NCBI RefSeq assembly: GCF_013112245.1
Contig: NZ_WVRN01000001.1
Location: forward strand, 562,501-626,500
Direction of reading: 5' to 3'
Origin: Ruegeria sp. HKCCD4315
GTDB lineage: Bacteria; Pseudomonadota; Alphaproteobacteria; Rhodobacterales; Rhodobacteraceae
Length of the DNA: 64,000 nt
Each line of letters begins with the position of its first letter. Position 1 is the first letter of the stretch. The notes beneath the pieces are model-generated. The model searched no databases. It was not told where the DNA came from and saw only the letters and a list, made by a program, of their open reading frames with translations. Shown piece by piece: positions 5,683-20,575 of this stretch. The position numbers and the translations under genes are program-made.

Positions 5683-6326
5683 CAAGAACTCCTTCCGAGC
5701 ATGGATTTTAGGGTTTTCAGATGCCCGTCGGCAGAGGCTATGGCTGGGGCGCACAATGCTTGGCAGGTGTCTGCTAAATCCTCTTGCGTCACCATTCGGT
5801 CGACCAGACCCCACATGGCTGCATCTTCTGCGTTGACGGCATCGCCCCCCAAAAGGATCGCTGCGCTCCGACCCGGGCCAATTAGCGCTTGTAGCCTGTT
5901 TACATCGTATTGACCGGGCAAAACATTGTTCTTGAGCACCGGGTAGGAAAACCGTGTTTCGGTCACACAAACCCGGATGTCGCACGCAAGGGCCAGGGTC
6001 ATACCCCCGCCGATGCAAGGTCCGTTAATGGCAGCCAGGGTCAGCACCGGGATAGCTCTGAGCGCTTGGGCCATTTCGTCCCAGGGGTCTGGGCCGTTCA
6101 CGTGGGTTGAAAGTGTGTTGAGATCCGCACCAGCGCAGAAAACGCGCCCGCCCGCGCCAGTAATAATCACGGCACGCAGCCCTGTGTCACTGGCGGCTTC
6201 AAGGAAGATGTCACGCAGAGAGACCAGCATCGAGTGTGTCAGTGAGTTAGCCTTCACTGGTCTGTTGATTGTAACAGTCAGACAGGCACCTTCGCGTTGG
6301 GTTTGGACTAGGTCGTTGTCACTCAT
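5682..6326 (-). CDS. Enoyl-CoA hydratase/isomerase-like protein, short
   Basis: A 214-residue crotonase-fold protein. The CoA and oxyanion-hole segments are clear: CAGADL (64-69) and GPCIGGG (102-108). It is about 40 residues shorter than usual at the C-terminus. The two hydratase glutamates (normally in a PEV motif and about 20 residues later) do not appear at the expected places; the segment reads YPVLKNNVLPG. It may therefore be an isomerase, hydrolase or lyase rather than a classical hydratase. The start at 6326 is chosen because ATGA overlaps the aldolase stop codon; the longer frame to 6377 is less likely. It is translationally coupled on both sides. Confidence 0.82.
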   Translation of the reverse strand: MSDNDLVQTQREGACLTVTINRPVKANSLTHSMLVSLRDIFLEAASDTGLRAVIITGAGGRVFCAGADLNTLSTHVNGPDPWDEMAQALRAIPVLTLAAINGPCIGGGMTLALACDIRVCVTETRFSYPVLKNNVLPGQYDVNRLQALIGPGRSAAILLGGDAVNAEDAAMWGLVDRMVTQEDLADTCQALCAPAIASADGHLKTLKSMLGRSS

Positions 6327-7051
6327 GACCGGAACTCCGGCACGCTTCGATCCAGCATACGCATCAGTGCTGGCCACTGGACGCCCCCATGTGGTCCGTT
6401 TTGCGGCGCGCCCCAGTCGTGCAAGGCATCCATCGCATCGTCTGTGATCGTGATCGGCTTGTCCGTCGCACTCAGAATATCGACCTGAATTTTGCAGGCC
6501 ATCTCAAGGTAGTAGTGATAAATGAAGGCTTCTGCCGCCGTGCGTCCGACCACCAATAGCCCGTGGTTCTGTAACAACATGGCAAAGTTGTTGCCAAGGT
6601 CGCGCGCCAACAGGGCACCTTCGTCCTCAACTGCTGTAGAGTCCTGATAGGGATGGCTCGACAGTGTGCCTAATACAAACCCTGCATGTTGGGACAAGGC
6701 CAACAGCCCATTGGGCATGGCCGAAACGGCAACGCCAGCACGCGTGTGGCTGTGGATCACGTAATTCACGTCAGGCCGGGCCAACAGGATGCCCGAGTGG
6801 ATGATGTGTCCGGCCAGATTGACGATCTTACTGCTGTCCGGCCCGTCATCGACGGCCTGCCCGTCGAACGACATGCGGGTCAGGGTCGAAGCCGTGATTT
6901 CGTCGAACATCAAATCATGAGAGTTCAACAGGTAATGGTCAGGGTCTTCTGGCAGACGCGCCGAGATATGGGTCGATGTCAGGTCGGTCCAGCCGTAATG
7001 ATGAGCAAGGCGATAAAGCGCGGCCAAGTCCTGACGGATCACGTTACTCAT
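6323..7051 (-). CDS. Class II aldolase/adducin-family protein
   Basis: A 242-residue protein of the class II aldolase/adducin fold, which uses a divalent metal to cleave or epimerise sugar phosphates or to decarboxylate related acids. The metal histidines are visible: HSH at 100-102 in VIHSHTRAG and H163 in QNHGLLVVG. The ATG at 7051 overlaps the stop of the Rieske gene (TGATG); a GTG one codon upstream (7054) is an alternative. It sits between the Rieske oxygenase and the hydratase-like gene. The substrate is unknown; many family members are in non-sugar catabolic operons. Confidence 0.85.
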   Translation of the reverse strand: MSNVIRQDLAALYRLAHHYGWTDLTSTHISARLPEDPDHYLLNSHDLMFDEITASTLTRMSFDGQAVDDGPDSSKIVNLAGHIIHSGILLARPDVNYVIHSHTRAGVAVSAMPNGLLALSQHAGFVLGTLSSHPYQDSTAVEDEGALLARDLGNNFAMLLQNHGLLVVGRTAAEAFIYHYYLEMACKIQVDILSATDKPITITDDAMDALHDWGAPQNGPHGGVQWPALMRMLDRSVPEFRS

Positions 7052-8211
7052 CACGTCTCTCCCAGCGCTTCGCGGTACAAATTGTGGAAATGTCGTAGTC
7101 CGACCTCACTCATCGCGCCGCAGCCGTCACCGATAACATAAGGCCCCGGCTCGAACGCGCGGCTTTGCATGCCTTTCTGGATTTTCGACACAACCACTTC
7201 GTCTTCGGCCCCGGTTGTTTCCTTGTGCTTGTGCATCAATGCGATCACATCCTCGTCCGCGATGTTGCCGCTCGAGAACCATCGATAGCGATAGATCGTC
7301 TTGTTCCAGGCCACAGGCAAAAACTGACGGATCGTAAAGTACCCTCCGGGGTAACAGCACATCGATACATTGGGAAAGATCCAATAAGCACCATAATCAT
7401 CTGCGCGTGGGCTGGCATTCAGATCATAGTCATACTGCTTTTCGTTCTTCGTCTGTGCCTTGCCATCATGCCAGATTGTCTTGCCATGCGGGACCGTAGT
7501 GTATCCATCCATCTCAAGAACGCCATGGGTCAGCGAGCTCGCGTGCACGGTCGGGCAATGGTAGCATTCGTTGTAGTTTTCGACCGTAAGCTTCCAGTTG
7601 CTATCGTGCGTGATCTCGGTTTCGCAAACGAATTTCAGCTGGCCGGGGTCGGCGTGAAAGCTCAGCAGGTTCTGGCGGTATTCTTCTAGATCGGGGCCCA
7701 TGGGTTCGGCATTTTCGTCCAGATTGACAAAGATAAATCCGCAAAACTCTTCGACCCGGATTTTACGCAGATTGATTTGGTCGCAGCTTAGGCCATCACT
7801 TTCGACCGAGCCGGGTGCGCGGCGCAGTCGGCCGTTAATTTCATACGTCCACGCATGATAAGGGCAGACCAAAACCCTCTTGCCCTTGCCTGTCCCTTCG
7901 ACCAGAGGGTGACCACGGTGGCGACAGATATTGTAGTACGCATTGATACCACCATCCTGCGCGCGAATGATAAAGATGTCCTCATCCACAATGGCAAAGG
8001 TCTTGAAATCGCCCGGATCGGCAATTTCGGACACATGGCATACGCATTGCCAGCTTCGGAAGAAGATTTTTTCCTTATCAACCTCGAACCAGTCCGGCTG
8101 AGTGTAATATTTGGCCTGCAAAGGCAAATCTCGTGGCATCTGGGGTCTCTCCTGGCTGGCTTGCCCAAGTGGCGCCGCATCGCGGGGATGTTGTTCAGCA
8201 TTAGCCTGCAT
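7051..8211 (-). CDS. Rieske non-heme iron oxygenase, alpha subunit
   Basis: A 386-residue ring-hydroxylating/demethylating oxygenase subunit. The Rieske [2Fe-2S] ligands are C96-x-H98 (CRHRGH) and C116-x2-H119 (CPYH). The mononuclear iron histidines are H218 and H223 in ENYNECYHCPTVH. The residue bridging the two centres is Glu (E215), not the usual Asp. From memory, Glu here is typical of oxygenases acting on quaternary ammonium compounds, such as carnitine CntA, glycine betaine GbcA and stachydrine demethylases. The ATG at 8211 has an AAGGGA ribosome site. It is the first gene of a minus-strand operon and is divergent from a LysR gene. No reductase partner is encoded nearby. Exact substrate unknown. 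Confidence 0.9.
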   Translation of the reverse strand: MQANAEQHPRDAAPLGQASQERPQMPRDLPLQAKYYTQPDWFEVDKEKIFFRSWQCVCHVSEIADPGDFKTFAIVDEDIFIIRAQDGGINAYYNICRHRGHPLVEGTGKGKRVLVCPYHAWTYEINGRLRRAPGSVESDGLSCDQINLRKIRVEEFCGFIFVNLDENAEPMGPDLEEYRQNLLSFHADPGQLKFVCETEITHDSNWKLTVENYNECYHCPTVHASSLTHGVLEMDGYTTVPHGKTIWHDGKAQTKNEKQYDYDLNASPRADDYGAYWIFPNVSMCCYPGGYFTIRQFLPVAWNKTIYRYRWFSSGNIADEDVIALMHKHKETTGAEDEVVVSKIQKGMQSRAFEPGPYVIGDGCGAMSEVGLRHFHNLYREALGET

Positions 8212-8233
8212 TGCACTGATCCCTTTGCACAGA

Positions 8234-8246
8234 TATAGAATCTTTA
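8234..8246. promoter_or_regulatory. Candidate LysR site between Rieske and LysR genes
   Basis: The 62-bp divergent intergenic region holds TATAGAATCTTTA, a quasi-palindrome (TATAGA/TCTTTA, five of six pairs) with the T-N11-A form of LysR-family sites. It is a reading-based candidate only. Confidence 0.3.
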
Positions 8247-8273
8247 CATCTAGGATAACTTCAGATTGCCCTC

Positions 8274-9173
8274 ATGACCCAAAACACCGTTGACGTTCCA
8301 CCGCTCGGGGCGGTTCGTGTCTTTTGGATTGCCGCGCGGTATGGAAACTTCAAACGCGCAGCGACAGAGCTGGGCGTGACGCCCACAGCCGTGAGTTCGC
8401 AGATCAAATCGCTCGAGGCTCATCTGGGCTGTCCCCTGTTCGAACGCCACGCGCAGTCGGTTGTTTTGAACGAAGCAGGGCAGCAGTTTTCCGAAGCCTG
8501 CGAGGCGGTATTTGCGCGGCTTGACCGGGCCGTGCAGGACGTACGCCAGACAGCGAATAGATCGTCTATAACGGTTGGCGTCGGCGCGCTGATCGGGTCG
8601 CAATGGTTATCCCGCCGCCTGTTCAGCTTTTGGCAACGCTTTCCCGAAACGGGCCTGCATCTTCAGTATTCCCCGGGCGGGGTGGAGTTTTCGGACGGTC
8701 AGACCGACATGATGCTGGCATGGGGGGACGGAGATTGGCCGAGATTGACATCGGAACCGCTGCTGCGATTTCCAACGTCGCCCGTCATCAGCCCAACTCT
8801 GATCGCCGAGAGTGCGCGCCCTTTGAAGCCTGCGGATCTGCTGCGCCTACCTCTGTTGCACTGGAAGGATCAAGTCGACTGGCTGGAGTGGTTCGATGCA
8901 CACGGGGTGGAAACCGGCGACCACCTTCCCGGTGTGATTATAGACGATTCGAGTGTTCTGCTCCGGGCGGTGTTGTCGGGTCAGGGTGTATCACTTGGGT
9001 TATTGCCGTTGATTGAAGTCGAATTGCAATCCGGCCAGTTGATCCGACCGTTCGACAACGATTTTGCGCCTTCAAGATCCTACCATCTGGTTTACCCATC
9101 CGATGCAATTGAACAGCCGCAGCTAAAAGCTTTTCGGGATTGGATTGTGCAAGAAGCGGGCCAGAACGGTTGA
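8274..9173 (+). CDS. LysR-family regulator, GcvA-like
   Basis: A 299-residue LysR transcription factor. The winged helix-turn-helix is at the N-terminus (roughly residues 10-70, PPLGAVRVFWIAARYGNFKR then TAVSSQIKSLE), followed by a periplasmic-binding-protein-like effector domain. The N-terminal wording resembles GcvA-type regulators. It is divergent from the Rieske operon across 62 bp, so it most likely controls that operon and itself. The effector is unknown. It runs towards the next LysR gene with a 31-bp gap. Confidence 0.9.
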   Translation: MTQNTVDVPPLGAVRVFWIAARYGNFKRAATELGVTPTAVSSQIKSLEAHLGCPLFERHAQSVVLNEAGQQFSEACEAVFARLDRAVQDVRQTANRSSITVGVGALIGSQWLSRRLFSFWQRFPETGLHLQYSPGGVEFSDGQTDMMLAWGDGDWPRLTSEPLLRFPTSPVISPTLIAESARPLKPADLLRLPLLHWKDQVDWLEWFDAHGVETGDHLPGVIIDDSSVLLRAVLSGQGVSLGLLPLIEVELQSGQLIRPFDNDFAPSRSYHLVYPSDAIEQPQLKAFRDWIVQEAGQNG

Positions 9174-9204: not shown

Positions 9205-10077
9205 TTAGGTCAGGTCGCTGGAAAGAATGAACGTGCTACACGCGTCTGCCAATGCTTTGAAGCGGGGCTTTTCCTTGACATACAAATAGACCTGTCGCCT
9301 GTCGGGTAGATCGGACAACGTGCGAAAGGCCATGCTTTCAGGGATAATGCGAGCAACGGTTTGGGGAAGGATGGTGATCCACTTTCCAGTTGCCACCATT
9401 GCTATCAGGGACTGGGTGTTGTGAATCGTAACGTTGGTCCCTTCCAGCGCTTCAACATATTCCTGTGCCTCAATGAGATCACACAGGGCATTTCGAACAA
9501 ATGTGGGTGTTACCACCTCATCCACGGTCGGCGGATCGGCCATTTTATTCAGCGGATGGTCAGCCGTACAGACCAGACCGAATTGATCTTCGAAAAAGGG
9601 ATAGGCTTTGACGCCCTTGACTGGATGAAAGCCAGACGCAATTCCAATGTCGGCTTTCCCGTCTGCAAGCGCGTCCAGAACCTGTCGCGTATCAGCATCC
9701 CGAAGCTCAACTTTAACGCCAGGAAAACATTGTGTCATGTGTTCAAGCACGGACGGGAAAATCAACGCGGCGACCGAGGGGACGGACGCTATTCGGATCA
9801 ACCCATTGGCAGCGTGGGCCGCAGCTTCGATGGATTGCACTGTCTCATCAAACTGGCGCACCTGTTTGAGGGATAACTCAAACACCTGCTCACCCAAAGC
9901 GGACAGATGGTTTTTACGTTCGCCGACAAACAGCTTTTTCCCCAGGTGATCTTCAAATTGCTTAAGGGTCATCGAGACAGCGGATTGGGTACGTCCCAGC
10001 CGGTCGGCAGCCTCCGACAGGTTGCCGGTTTGTGCGACAACGCAAAAGCAACGCAGCATTTCAATCTTGATTGTCAA
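9205..10077 (-). CDS. LysR-family regulator
   Basis: A 290-residue LysR regulator with N-terminal helix-turn-helix (MLRCFCVVAQTGNLSEAADR, then SAVSMTLKQFEDHLG) and an effector domain. The start at 10077 is a TTG with an AGGA ribosome site about ten bases upstream; an ATG at 10059 is possible but would leave almost no residues before the first helix. It is divergent from the aldehyde dehydrogenase operon (start 10177), so it is the likely regulator of that operon. Confidence 0.88.
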   Translation of the reverse strand: MTIKIEMLRCFCVVAQTGNLSEAADRLGRTQSAVSMTLKQFEDHLGKKLFVGERKNHLSALGEQVFELSLKQVRQFDETVQSIEAAAHAANGLIRIASVPSVAALIFPSVLEHMTQCFPGVKVELRDADTRQVLDALADGKADIGIASGFHPVKGVKAYPFFEDQFGLVCTADHPLNKMADPPTVDEVVTPTFVRNALCDLIEAQEYVEALEGTNVTIHNTQSLIAMVATGKWITILPQTVARIIPESMAFRTLSDLPDRRQVYLYVKEKPRFKALADACSTFILSSDLT

Positions 10078-10079
10078 AT

Positions 10080-10094
10080 TTCAGTTTTCCTGAA
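10080..10094. promoter_or_regulatory. Candidate operator between LysR and aldehyde dehydrogenase operon
   Basis: TTCAGTTTTCCTGAA is a perfect 5-bp inverted repeat (TTCAG/CTGAA, 5-base spacer) beside the LysR start. A second AT-rich dyad (AAATT/AATTT) lies near 10102-10117. Either could be part of the regulator's binding region; this is inferred from position and symmetry only. Confidence 0.35.
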
Positions 10095-10176
10095 GTTTGG
10101 TAAATTTATTTGAATTTGACTGATATGGCCCCAAAAGTCCATTCTCGGGCAAACTTTCTTGAACTTGAGGCCCGTC

Positions 10177-11622
10177 GTGACCAACCTGAATCTCATCGCT
10201 GGCGAATGGCTTGCCGGTGAAAGTGAAATCGAAAACCGCAATCCGTCTGATCTGAGCGACCTGATCGGCCATTTCGCACAAGCCAGTGCGGATCAGCTTG
10301 AGGCGACACTGGACCAGGCGCGCATCGCGCAAGCCGAATGGGCCGCTTATGGGCTGGAACGCAAGCAGGCCGTGTTGATGAACATTGGCAACGAACTGAT
10401 GGCCCGCGCCGAAGAGCTGGGCACTTTGCTCAGCCGTGAAGAAGGTAAACCCTTTGCAGAAGGGAAGGGCGAGGTCTATCGCGCCGGTCAGTTCTTTACC
10501 TATTATGCAGCTGAATGCCTGCGTCAGATCGGCGAGAACGCGGATTCCGTACGTCCTGATATCGAGATTGACGTGCGCCGCGAGGCGGTTGGCGTTGTGG
10601 CCGTTATCAGCCCGTGGAACTTCCCGACCGCGACGGCTTCGTGGAAAATCGCGCCGGCGCTCTGCTATGGCAATGCGGTAGTCTGGAAACCCGCCAACAT
10701 CACGCCTGCCTCTGCCGTGGCCCTGACCGAGATCATCAACCGTCAGGATATTCCCAAGGGCCTGTTTAGTCTTGTCATGGGCTCGGGTCGATCCATTGGG
10801 CAACGGCTGGCGGAAAGCCCGAAGGTGAACGCCATCTCGTTCACCGGATCGGTGCCGGTGGGCAAGGGCATTGCAGCAGCTGCCATCCAGAACCTGACCA
10901 AGGTGCAGATGGAGATGGGTTCGAAAAATGCGCTGGCCGTGATGGACGACGCCGACCTCGACCTTGCCGTTTCGTTGGCATTGGGTGGCGCATTTGGGGG
11001 AACCGGTCAGAAATGTACCGCCTCATCGCGGCTGGTGGTTCATGCTGCTGTGCATGACGCGTTTGTCGAGAAACTGGTCTCTGGTGCTCAGGCGATGAAA
11101 GTCGGTCACGCGCTGGAAGAGGGGACTCAGATGGGCCCTGTCGTCAGCGCGCAGCAACTGGCCGAGAACCTGGCCTATGTCGATCTGGGCAAATCTGAAG
11201 GGGCTGAACTGGCTTGCGGTGGACAGCGTTTGGAGATGCCGCATGATGGGTATTACATGAGCCCCGGCGTGTTCCTGAACACCACCAACGACATGCGCAT
11301 CAACCGGGAAGAGATGTTCGCGCCATTGACCTCGGTCATCAAGGTCGACAGCTATGATGAGGCTTTGGCAACGGTCAACGATACCTATTTCGGTCTGACC
11401 TCGGGCATCGTCACGCAAAATCTGGCCCGCGCCACACATTTCCGGCGCAATGCACGCACCGGGGTTGTGACGGTAAACCTGCCCACAGCGGGCACGGATT
11501 ATCATGTACCCTTTGGCGGGTGTGGTGACAGCTCTTATGGCCCACGTGAACAGGGCAAGGCTGCGGCCGAGTTCTACACGACGGTCAAAACCGCATATAT
11601 CAGCGCCGGAAAGCCGATCTGA
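10177..11622 (+). CDS. Aldehyde dehydrogenase family protein
   Basis: A 481-residue NAD(P)-dependent aldehyde dehydrogenase, full length for the family. Visible motifs are the nucleotide-binding SPWNFP region, FTGSVPVG, the general-base Glu in MEMGSKN, and the catalytic Cys in GQKCTASSR. The start is taken as GTG 10177, six bases after GAGG; a TTG at 10159 gives a slightly longer protein. It resembles semialdehyde dehydrogenases (2,5-dioxovalerate or succinate semialdehyde type), but the substrate cannot be fixed. It is the first gene of a tightly packed five-gene plus-strand operon and shares TGATG with the next gene. Confidence 0.92.
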   Translation: MTNLNLIAGEWLAGESEIENRNPSDLSDLIGHFAQASADQLEATLDQARIAQAEWAAYGLERKQAVLMNIGNELMARAEELGTLLSREEGKPFAEGKGEVYRAGQFFTYYAAECLRQIGENADSVRPDIEIDVRREAVGVVAVISPWNFPTATASWKIAPALCYGNAVVWKPANITPASAVALTEIINRQDIPKGLFSLVMGSGRSIGQRLAESPKVNAISFTGSVPVGKGIAAAAIQNLTKVQMEMGSKNALAVMDDADLDLAVSLALGGAFGGTGQKCTASSRLVVHAAVHDAFVEKLVSGAQAMKVGHALEEGTQMGPVVSAQQLAENLAYVDLGKSEGAELACGGQRLEMPHDGYYMSPGVFLNTTNDMRINREEMFAPLTSVIKVDSYDEALATVNDTYFGLTSGIVTQNLARATHFRRNARTGVVTVNLPTAGTDYHVPFGGCGDSSYGPREQGKAAAEFYTTVKTAYISAGKPI

Positions 11623-12596
11623 TGCGGATCGACGGGCTGCAATTCGCCAACTGGTCCGAAAAGATCTTTCGGCAATTGCGCGAAGGGGGCGTGGACGCGA
11701 TCCACGTCACCATCGCCTATCACGAGAATTTCCGCGAGACGGTTCTGAACTTTGAGAAATGGAACCGCTGGTTCGAACAATACCCGGACCTGATCATGAA
11801 GGGTCAATGGGCCAGCGACATTGACACGGCGCGGGAAACCGGGCGCACAGCAGTGTTCTTTGGGTTTCAGAACCCATCGCCCATCGAAGATGACATCGGC
11901 TTGGTCGAAATCGTGCATACACTGGGCGCGCGATTCATGCAGCTGACCTACAACAACCAATCGCTTTTGGCGACAGGCTGCTACGAGGCCGAAGACACTG
12001 GGATCACCCGCATGGGGCGTCAGGTGATCAAGGAAATGAACCGGGTCGGGCTTGTCGTTGACATGAGCCATTCAGCCGACCGGTCCACGATCGAGGCGGC
12101 CGAGCTGTCCGAGCGTCCGATTGCGATCACCCACGCTAACCCGTTTGATTGGGCCCCGGCCCTGCGTAACAAACGCTACGAAGTAATACGTGCGGTGACT
12201 GAAAACGGTGGGATGTTGGGGTTTTCGGTCTATCCTCATCACCTGAAGGACAAGTCGGACTGCACTCTTGAAAGCTTCTGCGAGATGATTGCGCGGACGG
12301 CTGAGAAATACGGAGCGGAACATCTGGGGATCGGTACGGATCTGTGTCAGGATCAGCCCGACAGCGTTGTCGAATGGATGCGGGTTGGCCGTTGGTCGAA
12401 GCAGATCGACTATGGCGAGGGGTCGGCAAGTAACCCCGGATTCCCCCCGATGCCGTCCTGGTTTCAGGACAATCGGGACTTTGGAAACATCGAATCCGGG
12501 TTGCGAGCGACCGGTCTGAACGATGAAGAAGTGGCCGGTATCATGGGTGAAAACTGGTACAGGTTCTTTGCCGAGAACTTCGGGCCTCAAGGGTAG
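11622..12596 (+). CDS. Membrane-dipeptidase-like protein (peptidase M19 fold), degenerate metal site
   Basis: A 324-residue protein of the M19/renal dipeptidase amidohydrolase family. The overall order is right: RIDGLQFANW at the start, GFQNPSPIEDDIG, DMSHSADRST, ITHANPFDW and a C-terminal MGENWYRFF motif. The usual N-terminal H-x-D pair and the bridging Glu are not seen (IDGLQ and GFQN are in their places), while both later histidines remain. It may therefore not be a standard dipeptidase. It resembles the M19-like protein that I recall beside glycine betaine/dimethylglycine genes in Pseudomonas (PA5396), which also lacks these residues. Its ATG overlaps the preceding stop codon. Confidence 0.85.
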   Translation: MRIDGLQFANWSEKIFRQLREGGVDAIHVTIAYHENFRETVLNFEKWNRWFEQYPDLIMKGQWASDIDTARETGRTAVFFGFQNPSPIEDDIGLVEIVHTLGARFMQLTYNNQSLLATGCYEAEDTGITRMGRQVIKEMNRVGLVVDMSHSADRSTIEAAELSERPIAITHANPFDWAPALRNKRYEVIRAVTENGGMLGFSVYPHHLKDKSDCTLESFCEMIARTAEKYGAEHLGIGTDLCQDQPDSVVEWMRVGRWSKQIDYGEGSASNPGFPPMPSWFQDNRDFGNIESGLRATGLNDEEVAGIMGENWYRFFAENFGPQG

Positions 12597-12600
12597 ATGA

Positions 12601-14289
12601 ATGGAAAAACTGACGCAGACACAGATCGAAAGACGAGACCCGGCCACAGTTATGCGGCTGTCGCGGTTGGGTTCTTTGCATCAGTGTCGGCTGAGTTTCA
12701 TGCGGCAATTGACCCGCCGAATGGCGCGGGAAAACTGGTCGTTCACACGGCCTGTCTTTGACATTGACGCCAATGGTGTTGGTCGGGCGGTCTATACCGC
12801 TCAAGGGCCGGATCGGACTTATTCGCTGGTGGCCTTTGCTCATGACTTGCCACCGGAACAACGGTCGGATCGGGTGATTGCCGAAGCGTGGGATGCCACC
12901 TTTGCTTTGTTCGACGGCATCCCGACCGAGGCCGACATTGACCGCCTTTCCCAAAACGTACCCCTGCAAGAGGCCGGGCGGGTGAGCGAAAGCGAGCTGT
13001 CCTTGTCTCGTGCCAATCGCTCGGTCCGCCTTTGGGACCATGTTGTGAAATCCTTGGCCGCAGGCCAGCAGCCGGATGTAGAGCAGATCTATCAAGTTGG
13101 GTACCTGATGCGGACAACTGCTGTATATGGCTCGGGCAAATTTGGCGCGGCGGATCGGGAAAAAGTTGCTGACCGGCCCGAGACGCAGGCCCCGTTTCAG
13201 GTCGAGATGCTATCGGTCTTTCTGACCCGAGCGTTTGTGCGGGATCTGGTGCAACACATGGCGAATGTCCAAGGCGGCGATAAAGCGGCGACTTTGGACC
13301 CAGAAATTTCCCGCTGGCTGGGGATTGGTAACTCCACCGGGCTTGGCATGGCACCGTTCATCGTCAACCACCCGGTTCTGTTCAACAACTGGATCATGGT
13401 ACGGGAAGAAGCGATTGCGCGGGTTCGGTCTGCGGAAGTTGCCAGCGACGCCGAGATCGCGCGGTTCCGCGAAGTTTTCGAACGCAGCCGACTGTCGGTT
13501 TCGTGGTGGCGATCTGAACATCAGATACAGGTCAAAAAGCTCGAGGCGTTGAAGGCCGACCTGTTGTTGATCTCCGAGTATCTGAGCCAAGATGATTTGA
13601 CCGCAGATCGACCGTGGAATCGACTGGTGGACTGGTCAGAAACCGCGCTTAGCGAGGAAGGTCAGGAGTTGCTGGCGTCGCTGATCCTGGAGCCTTATGG
13701 CGATTTGGTGGACGGGCTGGCTTCGTGCATGGCAGATACCCGCTCGCAGGCGTTTGTGATAGATGGAACCATGCCTATCGGGGCAGTCCGTGATCTTATC
13801 CGGGAAACATATGCCTGGGCTTTGGATCTGGATTGGGACGTCCGCGAGAATTGCGCGCGGGCGTGGTATGTTTCTGAAGAAAAGCTGGAACCCCGCATGG
13901 GGGAACGGTTTGATGAACCCATTTCTGACTATGAACAACCTCTGGCCCCGGCGCGGGATGCAGCGGCTGCCTATGACGCGCTGGGCGGGTGGGAAGACAC
14001 CAAGCCCGTGGCCGAATTTCTGCTGCGCCACCCGGAACATCGCCACACGATCCGGCGCGTTCAAATGACCCCATCCGCACCCTATGGCGAAATCCGGGAT
14101 AACACGATTGGGTCAAAGGTGCTGCCTATCGACATGCTGCGTGCAAAGCTGTCATTCTTTGGGGCAACCCATTTTGACCCCCGTTCGGATCGATGGGTGC
14201 GAATCTGCATGTATTCCGGTGCGCCGTACCCGGAGGAGCTGACTTCTGAAAACGCGGATCTTTGGGTATACCCGCAGGAACCAACATGA
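12601..14289 (+). CDS. Conserved protein of unknown function, 562 residues
   Basis: I do not recognise a characterised family. The protein is 562 residues, soluble by appearance, with no signal peptide or membrane segment. Notable segments are GIGNSTGLGMAPF followed by a conserved-looking VNHPVLFNNWI near residues 240-265, an Arg- and Trp-rich N-terminus, and an aromatic C-terminal end with WVRICMYSGAPYPEELTSE. The Gly-rich stretch could be a binding loop, but that is guesswork. It starts four bases after the M19-like gene and its stop overlaps the DUF3726 start (ATGA), so it is made together with both. The context suggests an enzyme or enzyme subunit of a catabolic pathway. Confidence 0.8.
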   Translation: MEKLTQTQIERRDPATVMRLSRLGSLHQCRLSFMRQLTRRMARENWSFTRPVFDIDANGVGRAVYTAQGPDRTYSLVAFAHDLPPEQRSDRVIAEAWDATFALFDGIPTEADIDRLSQNVPLQEAGRVSESELSLSRANRSVRLWDHVVKSLAAGQQPDVEQIYQVGYLMRTTAVYGSGKFGAADREKVADRPETQAPFQVEMLSVFLTRAFVRDLVQHMANVQGGDKAATLDPEISRWLGIGNSTGLGMAPFIVNHPVLFNNWIMVREEAIARVRSAEVASDAEIARFREVFERSRLSVSWWRSEHQIQVKKLEALKADLLLISEYLSQDDLTADRPWNRLVDWSETALSEEGQELLASLILEPYGDLVDGLASCMADTRSQAFVIDGTMPIGAVRDLIRETYAWALDLDWDVRENCARAWYVSEEKLEPRMGERFDEPISDYEQPLAPARDAAAAYDALGGWEDTKPVAEFLLRHPEHRHTIRRVQMTPSAPYGEIRDNTIGSKVLPIDMLRAKLSFFGATHFDPRSDRWVRICMYSGAPYPEELTSENADLWVYPQEPT

Positions 14290-14915
14290 ATTTTTCGCTC
14301 AACGAGATGGAAGCAACCGCAAAACGGGCCACCCGTGGCGCGGGCTATTCCTGGGGCCAGGCCGAGGAGGCGTCGAAGGCGGCCCGCTGGCTGTGCGTGC
14401 AGGGGCTGGACGGGGCGGGGATTTTGTCCTTGTTGTTGGAGCAGGGGCTGGCTTCGGATCCGGCAGCGCATCGCCCTGGGCAGATTAATTGCCTCTGGCA
14501 AGGCAAAGAAGCGTTGTGTCCCTTGTCTGCGGGGCCTTTGTTGTCTGATGCGGCCCACTTTCTGAAAACGGGCCCAATTGAGATGCGGAACGTCGCAGTG
14601 CCCGCCTTGATGCTGCCGTTTGCGCGTCATGCCGCGCGCATTTTGAATGAAGCGCTGACGATTGAGATCGACACGGTTCAGGGTGTCGTGGGCGAGGATT
14701 GGCTCATGGCCCCGGACAGTTTGCCAAAAACGGCCCACACGGTCGTGGTTTCCCGAGGCGGTGCGCCGATCACAACACGTGAACAAGAGACGCGCGCCTA
14801 TCCTGACCCACAGGATTGGGACACACTGAACCGCTTTGCCCACCGCACCTATGCCCCCGCAACCGAGGAATCCCGCCTGCTGGGTGCAGGGTCCGGGCTT
14901 TCTGACAATGATTGA
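14286..14915 (+). CDS. DUF3726 domain-containing protein
   Basis: A 209-residue protein recognised as DUF3726 from its start (MNFSLNEMEATAKRATRGAG) and the YSWGQAEEASKAARWL segment. Function is unknown. No signal peptide or membrane helix is seen. Its ATG overlaps the stop of the 562-residue gene by four bases, and the Ldh-family gene starts 12 bp after it. The constant pairing suggests that it works with the 562-residue protein, perhaps as a small subunit. The longer frame from 14262 is rejected in favour of the coupled ATG. Confidence 0.82.
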   Translation: MNFSLNEMEATAKRATRGAGYSWGQAEEASKAARWLCVQGLDGAGILSLLLEQGLASDPAAHRPGQINCLWQGKEALCPLSAGPLLSDAAHFLKTGPIEMRNVAVPALMLPFARHAARILNEALTIEIDTVQGVVGEDWLMAPDSLPKTAHTVVVSRGGAPITTREQETRAYPDPQDWDTLNRFAHRTYAPATEESRLLGAGSGLSDND

Positions 14916-14927
14916 AGAGACGCCAAA

Positions 14928-15935
14928 GTGACCGATACACAAACCCTGACCCTTGCTGAGATCGAAGACCTGTCTTTCCGCGCGCTCGTAGCGGCTGGCA
15001 CATCCAAAGAAAATGCCCGCCCGCTGGCGCAGGCCACAGCGGCAACCGAGGCCGATGGCGTTGCAAGTCACGGGCTCGCCTATATCCCGATCTATTGCGA
15101 GCATGTGCAATGCGGCAAGGTCGATGGTTTAGCGGTTCCCGTTCTGTCACGCCCCAAACCCGGTGTCGTGGCGGTTGACGCCGCAACCGGCTTTGCGCAT
15201 TCGGCCATCGACACAGGGTTTGAGGTCCTGATCCCGGCGGCCCGAGAACAGGGCGTCGCGGTTTTGGCTATTAAAAACAGCTATAACTGTGGCGTTTTGG
15301 GCTACCACACCTATCGGCTGGCCCAGGCAGGGCTGGTGGGGCTGGGGTTCACCAACGCCCCCGCCTCGATCGCACCGTCCGGCGGGTCGAAGCCTGTGGT
15401 GGGCACCAATCCTTTTTCCATTGCCGCGCCCGGTCCCGATAGTGAACCCGCCCTGCTGATCGACCAGAGCGCCAGTACCATCGCCAAAAGCGAGGTCATG
15501 AAACATGCGCGTGAAGGCAAGCCAATCCCGGTGGGATGGGCCTTGGACGCAGACGGCAATCCAACAACCGATCCTGAGGTTGGATTGAAGGGATCCATGG
15601 CACCGTCGGGTGGATACAAGGGTGTCGGTGTGGCTCTGATGGTAGAGCTTATGGCGGCGGCTCTGACAGGTGCCAGTTTGGGCATCAACGCATCCCCGTT
15701 TTCAGGAACTTTGGGCGGCCCCCCGAAGACAGGTCAGTTCTTCATTGCGATTGATCCAAGCGCGACGACGTCGAGTGGGTTTGAGACTGGGATTGCCGAA
15801 TTGGTCGGCGCGATCCGTGCTCAAGAGGCTGCGCATTTGCCCGGTGACGGCCGCAGTGCGAAGCGCCAGATCGCTCGTAAATCGGGCGTCGCAGTCAGCA
15901 AAGCCACGCTCGACAAGATATCAAAATTTCTGTGA
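14928..15935 (+). CDS. Ldh-family (malate/L-lactate/sulfolactate type) oxidoreductase
   Basis: A 335-residue NAD(P)-dependent dehydrogenase of the LdhA/YlbC family, which is unrelated to the Rossmann lactate dehydrogenases. The family SHG motif (VASHGLAYIPIY), the NSYNCGVLGYHTYRLA segment with its catalytic His, and the C-terminal GGYKGVGVALMVELM segment are clear. Members reduce 2-oxo acids or cyclic imino acids such as delta1-piperideine-2-carboxylate, so the substrate here is open. It starts with GTG after a GAAGAGA site and is the last gene of the plus-strand operon, facing the MttB-like gene 123 bp away. Confidence 0.9.
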   Translation: MTDTQTLTLAEIEDLSFRALVAAGTSKENARPLAQATAATEADGVASHGLAYIPIYCEHVQCGKVDGLAVPVLSRPKPGVVAVDAATGFAHSAIDTGFEVLIPAAREQGVAVLAIKNSYNCGVLGYHTYRLAQAGLVGLGFTNAPASIAPSGGSKPVVGTNPFSIAAPGPDSEPALLIDQSASTIAKSEVMKHAREGKPIPVGWALDADGNPTTDPEVGLKGSMAPSGGYKGVGVALMVELMAAALTGASLGINASPFSGTLGGPPKTGQFFIAIDPSATTSSGFETGIAELVGAIRAQEAAHLPGDGRSAKRQIARKSGVAVSKATLDKISKFL

Positions 15936-16058: not shown

Positions 16059-17594
16059 TTACCGCAGGTCCCTTACGGGAAAATGTTGCCGTATCGCCTT
16101 GTCCATGTCTTCAGGGATATGCGTAGGGCTTGGGTTGGCAAGCAGTTCTTGCGTGCGCAGTCGGGCCCGTTCGAGGACATCTTTATCAGGTGCCTCAGAC
16201 CACTCCTGCGGCGTTCTGCGGTCCGCCATCGCCGGGTAGAAATAGTCGCTTTCCATTCGGTTTATGGTCTGCGCGTGACCCAAAAAGTGCCCCGGTCCTC
16301 CGACGCAAACATCGCGGATGGTTTCAAGTGACAATGTGTCTTCCGATACTTCGAACCCGCGGGTCGCCCGCATCACTGAACCAATGAGGTCATTGTCCAA
16401 TACGAAACTTTCGAGCGATGCGCCAAGAAGCGAACCGTACATTCCTGCCGCTTCGTAGACCAGATTTGCGCCAGCAAGTGAGGCCAGAAGTTCCGTGTAT
16501 CCCTTTTCGTACCCAGCTTGAAAATCAGGGAGTTTGCTGTCGGTCATGCCAGCGCTGACAGCGCATGGGATATCATAGTGGCGCGCCATTTGTGCGCAGG
16601 CGGCCATCAGCAAACCTTGCTCGGCGGACCCTCCGGACATGGCCCCGGTCCGCAGATCACTGACAAATGGCAACGCTCCGAAAGTGGCTGGGTGACCGGG
16701 GTTCAGCAGGTTGACATAGACAATCCCGGCCAGGACCTCGGCGGTTTGTTGCGCCACGGCCCCGGCCAATGGGGCCGGGCTGGTCGCACCAGCCTGACCG
16801 GCCGCGACAAGCTTGAGCGGAATACCGTGCCGTGCCGCACATTCGATCACACCAAGTGCTTCTTCGGCGAATGTCAGCGGCGGGACGATAAAGCAGGTGG
16901 ACACGCAAACCGGCGGTCGTGCACGCAAGGCATCGGGCCCGCCCATGAGAAGGGCAAGCATTCGGACAGCCTCTTCCATGACGTCTGGCGATCCAAAAGA
17001 CGTACCTGTGGGTTTGCTTGTTCCTTTCAGACAGGCGTAGAGCGTATTGAGGTCCATTTCACGCGGGTCCGCAATGTCACGCGCGACAACAGTGCGTTGG
17101 AACATATGGATGTTCGGCAGTTGTTCAGCCAAGCGCGCCATGTCGTATAGGTCGCGCAGAGTTGTGTCGCGTATTTTGCCTGTTTGACTGTCTATCATGT
17201 GGACGGCAGCACCCGATGTGCCGAAATGCGTTCGCGACGAAGAGGGGTCGATGTCATTTGCGGGATCCAGACCGCAGAGTTTGAAGCCGCGGCCTGCAAT
17301 CTGAAGGGTCTTTCGAACCATTGCCTCAGGAAACAACAAACGCCCGTCATCCGTCAGGGACCCACCTGCTGAACATAGTGTTTCGATGCATCGCGGCGTC
17401 GCGCCTTTCACGCCAATTTCTTCGAGAATACGCATGGCAGTGTGATCGACCATTTCAATCTCGGCCTGGGTGAGGGGCGCATATTGCCCGCCCTCAATTC
17501 CAGGCCAGATCGCGCGTGTCGGCCCAGACCCGGCCCCATCGTTTCTCGCTTGGTGTCGCGCCGCACGGCCACCTGATCGTCTACGCTGGTTCAT
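16059..17594 (-). CDS. MttB-family (trimethylamine methyltransferase-like) protein, non-pyrrolysine
   Basis: A 511-residue member of the MttB superfamily. The open frame is uninterrupted, so there is no in-frame amber (pyrrolysine) codon as in trimethylamine-specific MttB. Non-Pyl members characterised in other bacteria demethylate quaternary amines such as glycine betaine, carnitine or proline betaine, passing the methyl group to a corrinoid protein. Recognisable parts are the QAEIEMVDHTAMRILEEIGV start, GTSFGSPDVMEEAV and SGGSAEQGLLMAA. No corrinoid protein gene is nearby. The ATG at 17594 has an AAGGGA site and overlaps the end of the MmgE/PrpD gene by 14 bases; the frame to 17645 is less likely. 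Confidence 0.88.
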   Translation of the reverse strand: MNQRRRSGGRAARHQARNDGAGSGPTRAIWPGIEGGQYAPLTQAEIEMVDHTAMRILEEIGVKGATPRCIETLCSAGGSLTDDGRLLFPEAMVRKTLQIAGRGFKLCGLDPANDIDPSSSRTHFGTSGAAVHMIDSQTGKIRDTTLRDLYDMARLAEQLPNIHMFQRTVVARDIADPREMDLNTLYACLKGTSKPTGTSFGSPDVMEEAVRMLALLMGGPDALRARPPVCVSTCFIVPPLTFAEEALGVIECAARHGIPLKLVAAGQAGATSPAPLAGAVAQQTAEVLAGIVYVNLLNPGHPATFGALPFVSDLRTGAMSGGSAEQGLLMAACAQMARHYDIPCAVSAGMTDSKLPDFQAGYEKGYTELLASLAGANLVYEAAGMYGSLLGASLESFVLDNDLIGSVMRATRGFEVSEDTLSLETIRDVCVGGPGHFLGHAQTINRMESDYFYPAMADRRTPQEWSEAPDKDVLERARLRTQELLANPSPTHIPEDMDKAIRQHFPVRDLR

Positions 17595-18927
17595 TTGAAT
17601 ATCCCTTGAATAACGTGGCACTGTCCTGTGCATCAGGCCATGCAAGAAGGCCGTTGAATGCGCGTTCCGGTTGTCCTGTGAGCGCGGTGTATTTTGCGGC
17701 CAGTTGTGCGTTGGTCATCGGGTTTTGCGATGCGCCAAGCGGAAAAGCGCAGGCTTCCGAAACTGCGCTCCCGTCATTAAATTCTATGCGCAGCAGGTCA
17801 GGTTGATCGGGGTCATAGTTGAGGTTCGAGTTTCGTGCGGGTTCGGCTGTCACACGCGTTAGTTGGATCAACCTTGAAACAGCAGGTGATTTCCAGAACG
17901 CGTCTTCGCTGTCTGATAGCGTAAGGTTCCCTGAGGCCAGAATTTGACCGACGCAGGCTGGGATTGAGAACAAGGCTTCCGCGCGTGACTTGGGGTGATT
18001 GAACGGCAATATCTCGGCGTGGAAGTCAGGCAAGCGGGTATCAATCGCGGTGATGCCCCCAAACCTTCCGTTAACCGCCGGGCGCAGGTTTATCGCAGCG
18101 GTCATCAGCCGATGTGTATACCCGCAAGAGGGCCAGGGTTTAAGGACAAGGCCATATTCACCCAAAGCCCAAGGCGATCCCATTTTGCCCATCGCGGCGT
18201 TAAATACAGATGGATCGTAGTTTCCTTGAAGCCCGGCGAAGCCTCGCGCATGATCCAGAACGTGCGGTTGGCCCGTCACGCCTTGCGCTGCCAACACAGC
18301 TGCTTCCAAGCCATTCCGTGCCGCCCATCCGGCTTGCAACGGTTTTGTGTTTGACCCGAATTGCAGCGTGTATCCTGACGCAGTCGAGGTTGCCAACGAC
18401 AGGGCGTGCGCAGTCTGATCCGCCGATAGGGCCAGCAGGCGCGATACCGCCCCGGCAACGCCGATCGTGCCCAATGTAGCCGTGGAATGGAACCCACGCG
18501 CATAGTGATCCAAGCTCACGGCTTCGCCAAGGCGCATGATGATTTCGGTGCCAACTGCATAAGCCGCCAACAGCTCTGCCCCGGTGGTGCGGCGAAACGT
18601 ACTGGCCGCGAGAAGGGCGGGCAGCAACACCACGGTAGGATGCGAGTTCCCCGGCTCCTCCCAATCATCCAGATCCCAGGCATGACCAGCGATCGCATTG
18701 ATCTGAGCGGCAAAGAGCGCGCTCAGGGTCTGGTTCGTGCCAAATAGTGGGCAGGGGCCTGCGCCAAACCCGCCCAAGGCCCGGGTCGCGCGCATGACAA
18801 CTTCGCTTGTCGACCCGGCGAGGATGCATCCAAAGCAGTCGGCGATTGCCGGGGCAATCACTTTGCGTAGATCAGGCGGGGGAACTGCATGGACTGCAAA
18901 CTGCGCCAGCCGGGAAATTGCGGTCAT
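17581..18927 (-). CDS. MmgE/PrpD family protein
   Basis: A 448-residue protein of the MmgE/PrpD family, which includes 2-methylcitrate dehydratase, cis-aconitate decarboxylase and other lyases or isomerases of carboxylic acids. The early GHAWDLDDW segment (the family's D-D motif), SHPTVVLLPALLA, and GFHSTATLGTIG are diagnostic, and the KPWPSCGYTHRL region forms the active-site part. The ATG at 18927 overlaps the stop of a 45-residue ORF by four bases. Substrate unknown. Confidence 0.88.
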   Translation of the reverse strand: MTAISRLAQFAVHAVPPPDLRKVIAPAIADCFGCILAGSTSEVVMRATRALGGFGAGPCPLFGTNQTLSALFAAQINAIAGHAWDLDDWEEPGNSHPTVVLLPALLAASTFRRTTGAELLAAYAVGTEIIMRLGEAVSLDHYARGFHSTATLGTIGVAGAVSRLLALSADQTAHALSLATSTASGYTLQFGSNTKPLQAGWAARNGLEAAVLAAQGVTGQPHVLDHARGFAGLQGNYDPSVFNAAMGKMGSPWALGEYGLVLKPWPSCGYTHRLMTAAINLRPAVNGRFGGITAIDTRLPDFHAEILPFNHPKSRAEALFSIPACVGQILASGNLTLSDSEDAFWKSPAVSRLIQLTRVTAEPARNSNLNYDPDQPDLLRIEFNDGSAVSEACAFPLGASQNPMTNAQLAAKYTALTGQPERAFNGLLAWPDAQDSATLFKGYSNEPA

Positions 18928-19061
18928 GAAACCGCACCCAGAGTTGCCTGGAACCTGACCTTTTCCCCCGCACATATCCGCATGGTGAGCAGCGGCCCAA
19001 GAACCGCAGCGGCACGGATATGTTGTGTTAATCTGCTGCCGTCGCCGAAAATGCCTTTCAT
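18924..19061 (-). CDS. Small ORF, 45 residues, coupled to MmgE/PrpD gene
   Basis: A short reading frame not long enough for usual ORF lists. It begins MKGIFGDGSRLTQHIRAA and ends LGAVS, with an ATG at 19061 preceded by a strong GAGGAAG ribosome site at a six-base spacing. Its TGA overlaps the ATG of the MmgE/PrpD gene (ATGA). It fills most of the 166-base space between the aldehyde dehydrogenase and MmgE/PrpD genes. It may be a real small protein or only a leader that brings ribosomes to the next gene, which itself has a poor ribosome site. I do not recognise the peptide. Confidence 0.55.
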   Translation of the reverse strand: MKGIFGDGSRLTQHIRAAAVLGPLLTMRICAGEKVRFQATLGAVS

Positions 19062-19093
19062 GTCATTCTTCCTCTGCTGCGCAACACTGCCGT

Positions 19094-20575
19094 TCATGCA
19101 AACGGATCAAGCTGATGGGGATCTGTGGAGAGCCAGACAGATTTGGTTTGTAAGAAGCATCGCATCCCGTCCCAGCCGTTTTCGCGCCCATAGCCGGACT
19201 GTTTGTACCCCCCGACTGGAGATTGGGTCGACGCATTGAAGTAGTTGTTGATGTACACAGTGCCGGCTTCGATCCGGTCGGCCATCCGCATCGCTTTGGC
19301 CACGTCACGGGTCCAGATGCCCGCAGCAAGACCGTAGGGCGTATCGTTGGCGGTTCGGATCACATCTCTTTCGTTTTCCCAGCTCTCGGTGCTGACGACA
19401 GGTCCAAATACCTCGGACTGCGCAAGTTTCGCGTCGTTCGGTACGTCGGCAAAAATGGTTGGGCCGATGTAGTAGCCTTCGGATCGACAGGCCGTTCTGC
19501 CGTCAAGCAACAGCCTGTGCCCGGCGATTTCAGCATCTGCAATGTGCTGCAGAACGCGCTGGTAATGAGGCTTGTTGGCTATGGGGCCGATCTGTGTGGC
19601 TGGATCTAGCGGATCGCCGACACGGGCTTTTGCGACCGTTTCAACTAGCTTTTCCGAGAACACATCAATGATATCCCGATGCACCAAAAGGCGTGATCCT
19701 GCTATGCAGCTTTGCCCGGCCGGTGGGAAAATCCCCGACGCCACTCCATTGACGGCCAGATCAAGATCGGCATCCGGCAACACGATCTGAGGTGACTTTC
19801 CTCCCAATTCCATCACCACGGGTTTTACGCCCTTGGCAGCGGCAATGGCGGCCGCGCACCCCCCGGCTGTGCCACCTGTAAAGCTGACCATGCGCGCGTC
19901 AGGATGTTCGATCATGGGTTGGGCCGTTGTCGCACCATATCCTGTGACAACATTCAACACGCCGGGCGGCAAATCCGCTTCCAGTAAAACCGCCATCAAT
20001 TCCAAGGTCGAGCAACTGGATTGCTCGGATGGCTTCATCACCACCGTATTGCCTGCCGCCAGACACGGGGCGAGTTTCCAGAGCAGAGTGCCCAGAGGCG
20101 AATTCCAGGGCAGCACCTGCGCCACGACGCCGAACGGTTCATATTTTACATAATTGTGGATGTTCGAAGCCTCGGCCGGGGTAACGCGGCCTTCGAATTT
20201 GTCGCACATTCCAGCGTAGTAATGGAAACTGTCCACCAGCCACGCACCCTCTCGTAAACCGGGCGTGATCATCGAAGGCAATTTGCCGTTGTCGCGGGTT
20301 TCGACCTGACCCAACCTGTCGGCATGGCGGGAAATCACGTCTCCCATTCTCCGTAAAATGCGACCCCGCTCTGCAGGTTGCATCCGCCCCCAAGGCCCAT
20401 CGTAATAGGCCGATTTCGCGGCGGCGACTGCAAGCTCCACGTCCATCTGACGACAATCGGGTACTCTGGCCCAGACCTTGCCAGTGGCTGGGTTTTCGCT
20501 GTCGATATAGCTGCCACCGAATGGCTCATGCCATGTATTGCCAGCAAAGAATTTGAAGGTTCGGATGTCACTCAT
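19094..20575 (-). CDS. Aldehyde dehydrogenase family protein
   Basis: A 493-residue NAD-dependent aldehyde dehydrogenase of full length. Motifs are VLPWNSPLG, SFTGGTAGG, the general-base Glu in MELGGKSPQ, and the nucleophile Cys in PAGQSCIAGSR. Its type resembles betaine/gamma-amino aldehyde dehydrogenases, which fits its position directly after a choline-dehydrogenase-like flavoprotein, but the substrate is inferred. The ATG at 20575 overlaps the GMC stop codon (ATGA). Confidence 0.92.
   Translation of the reverse strand: MSDIRTFKFFAGNTWHEPFGGSYIDSENPATGKVWARVPDCRQMDVELAVAAAKSAYYDGPWGRMQPAERGRILRRMGDVISRHADRLGQVETRDNGKLPSMITPGLREGAWLVDSFHYYAGMCDKFEGRVTPAEASNIHNYVKYEPFGVVAQVLPWNSPLGTLLWKLAPCLAAGNTVVMKPSEQSSCSTLELMAVLLEADLPPGVLNVVTGYGATTAQPMIEHPDARMVSFTGGTAGGCAAAIAAAKGVKPVVMELGGKSPQIVLPDADLDLAVNGVASGIFPPAGQSCIAGSRLLVHRDIIDVFSEKLVETVAKARVGDPLDPATQIGPIANKPHYQRVLQHIADAEIAGHRLLLDGRTACRSEGYYIGPTIFADVPNDAKLAQSEVFGPVVSTESWENERDVIRTANDTPYGLAAGIWTRDVAKAMRMADRIEAGTVYINNYFNASTQSPVGGYKQSGYGRENGWDGMRCFLQTKSVWLSTDPHQLDPFA

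Follow-up and report, generated by a model that had tools for sequence, protein, structure and literature searches.

A conserved five-gene operon of Ruegeria, probably serving homarine breakdown, encodes the nearly inseparable proteins F562 and DUF3726

INTRODUCTION

What does a tightly packed operon do when two of its five proteins have no assigned role? The question is raised by a stretch of 64,000 nucleotides (nt) from Ruegeria sp. HKCCD4315 (genome of 4.74 Mb; assembly GCF_013112245.1, contig NZ_WVRN01000001.1, positions 562,501 to 626,500 of the forward strand), which we call the window. It carries, in order, genes for an aldehyde dehydrogenase (ALDH), a protein resembling peptidase family M19, a 562-residue protein (F562), a DUF3726 protein and an Ldh_2-family dehydrogenase, with a divergent gene for a LysR-type regulator beside them. 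A first-pass annotation had argued from the packing of the five genes that they serve one pathway or complex. We find that F562 and DUF3726 form a nearly inseparable pair. Furthermore, the operon and its divergent regulator are probably the set of genes with which marine bacteria break down homarine to N-methylglutamate.

RESULTS

The five genes form a conserved operon

All five open reading frames (ORFs) and the four junctions between them were confirmed by reading the sequence. The ALDH and M19-like genes have TGATG in common (11620-11624), and four bases separate the M19-like stop (12596) from the F562 start (12601). F562 and DUF3726 overlap by ATGA (14286-14289), and 12 bases lie between the DUF3726 stop (14915) and the GTG start of the Ldh_2 gene (14928). 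The next large family-matched ORF downstream, encoding an MttB-family methyltransferase (16059-17645), is on the opposite strand, which makes 15935 the probable end of the operon.

A single scan with F562 across contigs of named genomes gave 93 loci, the best 80 of which served as close relatives. They are mainly Rhodobacterales, the nearest named F562 proteins being those of Ruegeria, and some of the loci end at contig edges. Genes were counted as adjacent when −60 to 150 nt lay between them. F562 and DUF3726 were present in all 80 relatives and adjacent in 79, with a median gap of −4 nt (the ATGA overlap); the remaining locus (L081) has both in a single reading frame. The M19-like gene was matched in 80 of 80 loci at a looser threshold and in 79 at a stricter one, and it adjoins F562 in 78; a 1.67-kb insert separates the two genes in two relatives. 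ALDH was adjacent to M19 in 70 of the 72 loci holding both, and DUF3726 to Ldh_2 in 69 of 69. The complete five-gene set was found in 63 of the 80 relatives (stricter match), and a match to the window's LysR gene in 66. This arrangement is not due to chance: the operon is real and conserved.

F562 and DUF3726 are nearly inseparable

Beyond close relatives, we used a class sample of 289 genomes and a phylum sample of 398 genomes that overlaps it. F562 occurs in 39 class-sample genomes and the Pfam DUF3726 family in 32, all of them within the 39. The corresponding counts for the phylum sample are 29 and 27, again with full inclusion, and each of its 29 DUF3726 matches has an F562 match 5-101 nt away. 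The first-pass annotation would have been contradicted by finding the two proteins mostly apart in other genomes; they are found together (32 of 32 and 27 of 27 DUF3726 genomes). For neighborhood counts, we retrieved the 40 class-sample F562 places outside the window's genome. F562 and DUF3726 are both present in 32 of these and adjacent in all 32; M19 and F562 are adjacent in 27 of 34 loci holding both, ALDH and M19 in 11 of 15, and DUF3726 and Ldh_2 likewise in 11 of 15.

The pair reaches across lineages and genome sizes. F562 occurs in class-sample genomes of 1.2-1.4 Mb, similar in size to those of SAR11, and in Candidatus Puniceispirillum marinum, a SAR116 species. Nine of the 29 phylum-sample F562 genomes come from a different class within the phylum. 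The eight loci retrieved from these nine have the order ALDH-M19-BCCT-F562 with DUF3726 downstream, and a divergent LysR gene is present in all seven where the stretch reaches it.

Seven class-sample genomes have F562 without a Pfam DUF3726 match: those of loci L120 and L124, one where the locus runs into the end of a contig (G088), and a further four. In L120, a diverged gene with the same conserved tail as DUF3726 lies directly downstream of F562. In L124 (genome G057), F562 is 30% identical and sits in a frame of 868 amino acids (aa), the C-terminal part of which matches the DUF3726 profile (E = 1.1e-4, probability 56%). Judging from this match, the two proteins are probably fused in this distant relative, which lends moderate support to a physical F562-DUF3726 pair. 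The single frame of L081 was also considered as a fusion and rejected, as it arises through a shift at the F562/DUF3726 junction.

Some genomes show further variation. Second F562 copies, 47-49% identical, occur in G252 and G154 (L115 and L117). The DUF3726-like gene that comes after each copy is short, at 171-172 aa, and has a version of the conserved tail. The F562 of G084 (L123) has 703 aa, including an insertion of ~140 residues made of Asp/Asn/Gly/Ser/Val-rich repeats.

The proteins of the operon

F562 matches no Pfam entry above the cut-off (best E = 0.025), and a protein search returned at least 8000 relatives. Its structural model is confident [predicted local distance difference test (pLDDT) 87.5, predicted template-modeling score (pTM) 0.90], and fold comparison of the model returned no close fold. 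Many polar residues are invariant across 47 diverse F562 sequences, an alignment that omits ORFs of 500 aa or fewer.

The DUF3726 protein has the fold of the Ldh_2 family (malate/L-lactate dehydrogenase, type 2), shortened to 209 residues from 335. The Ser-His-Gly motif of that family, the His of which is presumably catalytic, is lost: Val-Gln-Gly aligns there in DUF3726, at a position that varies across the DUF3726 family. In contrast to Ldh_2, DUF3726 has an additional conserved C-terminal tail, and pLDDT drops to 56 and 46 in the final two 10-residue blocks of the model.

The other three proteins were aligned with closed ORFs within set lengths (M19, 300-345 aa; Ldh_2, 310-360 aa; ALDH, 470-500 aa; DUF3726 was treated likewise at 165-245 aa). 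The M19-like protein, which had been described as lacking its usual metal residues, belongs to peptidase family M19 (membrane dipeptidase) by its profile and departs from the family's two-metal site of HxD, bridging Glu and two His. The metal-ligand positions are those we presume for the family. The Pfam match begins at profile position 36, leaving the HxD segment without a counterpart, and the bridging Glu is replaced by Gln83 (alignment to 5lx0). Two metal-site His and an Asp are kept: His150, His171 and Asp240, like Gln83 and Cys242, show no variation among the 112 aligned proteins. Because His150, His171 and Asp240 are invariant, the metal site appears to be only partly lost, and a one-metal site is possible. 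The earlier description thus holds for HxD and the bridging Glu and fails for these three residues.

The ALDH matches its family profile and has a catalytic Cys, Cys280, that is invariant in 81 of 81 aligned proteins. Its best NCBIfam model is alpha-ketoglutaric semialdehyde dehydrogenase (479 bits, below the 770-bit cut-off). The Ldh_2 dehydrogenase likewise matches its profile and keeps Ser47-His48-Gly49 in 85 of 85 aligned proteins; its nearest solved relative is 1wtj, a delta1-piperideine-2-carboxylate reductase (E = 1.2e-57).

Transporters and N-methylglutamate genes accompany the operon

Neighboring genes were surveyed in 120 loci, with genes called by length only and then clustered, and representatives scanned for families; the resulting counts are lower bounds. 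One BCCT transporter cluster occurs in 35 loci; in 34 of them its gene starts no more than 300 nt after the Ldh_2 or DUF3726 gene. ProW-like genes were found in seven loci, two of them in 1.4-Mb genomes, and ProX-like genes in six of the seven; the OpuAC domain was confirmed in L112. SoxA-family genes occur in nine loci, with SoxG- and SoxB-family genes alongside and an AraC-type regulator in some.

Some of these SoxA genes probably belong to N-methylglutamate dehydrogenase (Mgd), the genes of which (mgd) form a SoxBDAG-like set. In a tree of 25 SoxA proteins, seven of the nine from F562 loci join all five gmaS-linked SoxA proteins in a group of 17 rows, the support of which (91/95) falls slightly short of the tool's mark; L116, L121 and a sarcosine-type row lie outside it. 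The gmaS-linked L168 groups with L070, L073 and L074 at 100/100. SoxBDAG-like genes adjoin gmaS in five genomes of the family, with mgsA found in four, and two of the five gmaS neighborhoods have a regulator resembling the AraC-type one that accompanies F562. An AraC-type gene, tmaR, adjoins mgdABCD in Ruegeria pomeroyi, according to an excerpt of PMC13390433. In G312 and G321, gmaS lies ~14 kb from F562. The window's genome itself has gmaS-mgs-like genes (named by reading the sequence) and two mgd-like SoxBDAG operons (L149 and L150), with SoxA ~70% identical to one at an F562 locus. A BCCT gene sharing 68-79% identity with the operon-linked BCCT cluster comes after one of these operons.

Given the betaine-type transporters and the linkage to probable mgd genes in a few relatives, the substrate is probably a quaternary N-methyl compound and the end product N-methylglutamate. 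The proposal that the packing reflects one pathway or complex is supported: neither sample yielded a DUF3726 genome lacking F562, one distant relative probably has the pair fused, M19 accompanies the pair, and ALDH, Ldh_2, LysR and betaine transporters often do so as well.

Two 1.4-Mb genomes (L112 and L111) have ProX/W/V-type genes followed by ALDH-M19-F562-DUF3726. Near the L112 locus are a dimethylsulfoniopropionate (DMSP) demethylase-family gene (515 bits, above the cut-off of 410) and a dioxygenase gene near the TmpA model (341 bits, below the cut-off of 400); both cluster with genes of L111.

Features and flanking genes in the window

Feature coordinates are collected in Table 1. The LysR ORF starts at or inside the position given there. 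A weak candidate T-N11-A-like site, TCAGTTTTCCTGA, lies at 10081-10093 in the LysR-ALDH intergenic region.

Table 1. Features of the operon and its regulator in the window.
Feature	Position	Strand	Match or property	Proposed role
LysR-type regulator	9205..10077	-	Pfam LysR_substrate/HTH_1; divergent from operon	Probable pathway regulator
LysR-ALDH intergenic region	10078..10176	.	Conserved blocks (alignment, 65 sequences)	
ALDH	10177..11622	+	Pfam Aldedh, 4.4e-151	Semialdehyde oxidation step
M19-like protein	11622..12596	+	Pfam Peptidase_M19, 9.9e-69	Deformylase/amide hydrolase
F562 (562 aa)	12601..14289	+	No Pfam family above cut-off	
F562 loop, residues 178-184	13132..13152	+	pLDDT < 50, yet G179 and G182 invariant in 47 sequences	
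DUF3726 protein	14286..14915	+	Pfam, 3.5e-18; shortened Ldh_2-type fold	F562 partner
DUF3726 tail, residues 191-209	14856..14912	+	Conserved; low confidence in single-protein model	
Ldh_2-family dehydrogenase	14928..15935	+	Pfam Ldh_2, 2.5e-95	Imine reductase yielding N-methylglutamate

The minus strand at 16059-22224 carries the MttB-family methyltransferase, which has no in-frame stop, an MmgE/PrpD gene, and a second ALDH and a GMC oxidoreductase, the latter two named by reading their sequences. Among the 80 relatives' loci, MttB was matched in one, and PrpD and GMC in none. On the other side, 4531-8211 holds a Rieske oxygenase gene that is weakly GbcA-like (175 bits against a cut-off of 670) and ORFs resembling class II aldolase, enoyl-CoA hydratase and CoA-transferase, again named by reading the sequences. 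A GcvA-like LysR gene (8274-9173) lies beside this set. The whole set (4531-9173) was found in only one of the 80 relatives (L002).

DISCUSSION

Homarine (N-methylpicolinic acid) is a common algal compound. Ferrer-Gonzalez et al. (2026, Nat Microbiol) reportedly described a homarine catabolic operon, named homABCDER. It is said to comprise five genes and a regulator, to occur in Rhodobacterales, SAR11 and SAR116, and to yield N-methylglutamate. The five structural genes and adjacent regulator of that operon are matched here by the LysR gene and the five genes, and its distribution agrees with the Rhodobacterales relatives and with F562 in Candidatus Puniceispirillum marinum and in the 1.2-1.4-Mb genomes. 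Mgd participates in homarine catabolism, as stated in an excerpt of PMC13390433 that cites Ferrer-Gonzalez et al. (doi 10.1038/s41564-026-02313-7). We consider it likely that the Ruegeria operon is the homarine operon. With this probable identity, the pathway is probably not an unknown one; the earlier statement that two of the five proteins have no known role stands for the domain databases searched.

Several observations weigh against this identification. The likeness to the published operon is one of reported composition rather than gene sequence. ALDH and Ldh_2 were not found adjoining F562 in many of the distant loci. Only nine of the 120 loci have SoxA in the vicinity of F562, two of the nine falling outside the Mgd group. 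Among 41 genomes of the family, a SoxA relative of at least 52% identity was present in 16 of 19 with F562 and 15 of 22 without it, a difference that is not significant (P = 0.29). No recognizable cofactor motif was found in F562 by library searches or in the 47-sequence alignment. Furthermore, R. pomeroyi DSS-3 grew less effectively on homarine than on trigonelline in an excerpt of PMC8269262, which would count against the identification if DSS-3 carries the operon. Fast homarine assimilation by the same strain is noted in an excerpt of PMC12817926.

If the operon does degrade homarine, the structures of substrate and product suggest a route. N-methylglutamate is one carbon short of homarine; with C2 becoming the alpha carbon, ring C6 would be lost, the C5-C6 bond would be cut, and the C6 fragment would have to come off the nitrogen. 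After the cut, the route would call for amide hydrolysis, aldehyde oxidation and imine reduction. The M19-like protein, ALDH and Ldh_2 could supply these, which leaves F562 and DUF3726 for the cut itself; the role is reached by elimination because no cofactor motif was recognized in F562. F562 with DUF3726 would thus open the N-methylpyridinium ring at C5-C6, leaving an aldehyde and a formyl group on the nitrogen. The M19-like protein would take off the formyl group, ALDH would oxidize the aldehyde, and Ldh_2 would form N-methylglutamate by reducing the C=N (or enamine) still present; Mgd would then demethylate N-methylglutamate to glutamate. On this reading DUF3726, once an Ldh_2-type dehydrogenase, would now assist F562 by way of its conserved tail. 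By elimination, F562 and DUF3726 are good candidates for the ring-opening enzyme, and the assignment of steps to individual proteins is tentative as a whole.

Cleavage next to the nitrogen has an analogy in trigonelline degradation, where the oxygenase TgnA/TgnB opens an N-methylpyridinium carboxylate ring; the excerpt of PMC8269262 that describes it also regards TgnA/B as unlikely to act on homarine. In contrast, the conserved set of F562 loci contains no oxygenase among the clusters inspected, which were not searched for TgnA/B themselves. F562 and DUF3726 might be a new ring-cleaving enzyme for N-methylpyridinium carboxylates. F562 would be catalytic, with a fold absent from the Protein Data Bank (PDB), and the conserved tail of DUF3726, the retired dehydrogenase, would reach in to complete the active site. 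We regard this fuller picture as less likely than not.

The ring could instead be attacked by an enzyme encoded elsewhere. F562 and DUF3726 would then be a pair that regulates or chaperones the M19-like protein or the dehydrogenase. Such a role would be in keeping with DUF3726, whose dehydrogenase fold lacks the catalytic His, as is typical of pseudoenzymes. The absence from F562 of both a recognizable cofactor motif and a close fold would also suit such a pair, as would the adjacency of M19 and F562 in 78 of 80 relatives and in 27 of the 34 class loci holding both. However, the invariant polar residues of F562 over diverse sequences are enzyme-like, and the inspected clusters offer no oxygenase in the conserved neighborhood. 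We regard a purely supporting role as unlikely. The M19-like protein, in turn, may act on another amide or as a demethylation accessory, homarine carbon 6 leaving in some other way. Its nearest solved structure is 2i5g, Pseudomonas aeruginosa protein PA5396. In an excerpt of PMC12093977, the dimethylglycine dehydrogenase genes dgcAB of Vibrio natriegens have a predicted dipeptidase gene ahead of them, and P. aeruginosa has one in the same place. Possible relatives of the M19-like protein beside dgcAB may thus be helpers in methylated-amine breakdown. Against this, the dgcAB-linked proteins are not known to have a demonstrated function, and the loss of HxD and the bridging Glu tells only against a classical two-metal dipeptidase. 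A different role for the M19-like protein is, in our judgment, similarly unlikely.

A different substrate is more improbable still. Proline betaine, N-methylproline or some other N-methylated cyclic amino acid might be what the operon degrades, via an N-methylglutamate semialdehyde: an oxidase would open the ring, ALDH would form N-methylglutamate, and Mgd would demethylate it. The same transporters, ALDH and mgd linkage would serve, and the model nearest to the ALDH is that for alpha-ketoglutaric semialdehyde dehydrogenase, though the match is below the cut-off. On such a route, however, the amide hydrolase and the Ldh_2 imine reductase would be superfluous, and no betaine-demethylating enzyme belongs to the conserved set among the clusters inspected.

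The operon as such was probably already described in 2026. What is new, as far as our searches show, is that F562 and DUF3726 are nearly inseparable and probably fused in one relative, and that DUF3726 combines an Ldh_2-type fold with a conserved tail. If this is the homarine operon, then its chemistry rests on two families unnamed in the libraries searched, F562 and a domain of unknown function. A nearly inseparable pair, once probably fused, together with a remodeled dehydrogenase fold, gives a biochemical hypothesis for the ring-opening step. If the homarine identification is true, the pair would also offer a marker for metagenomes.

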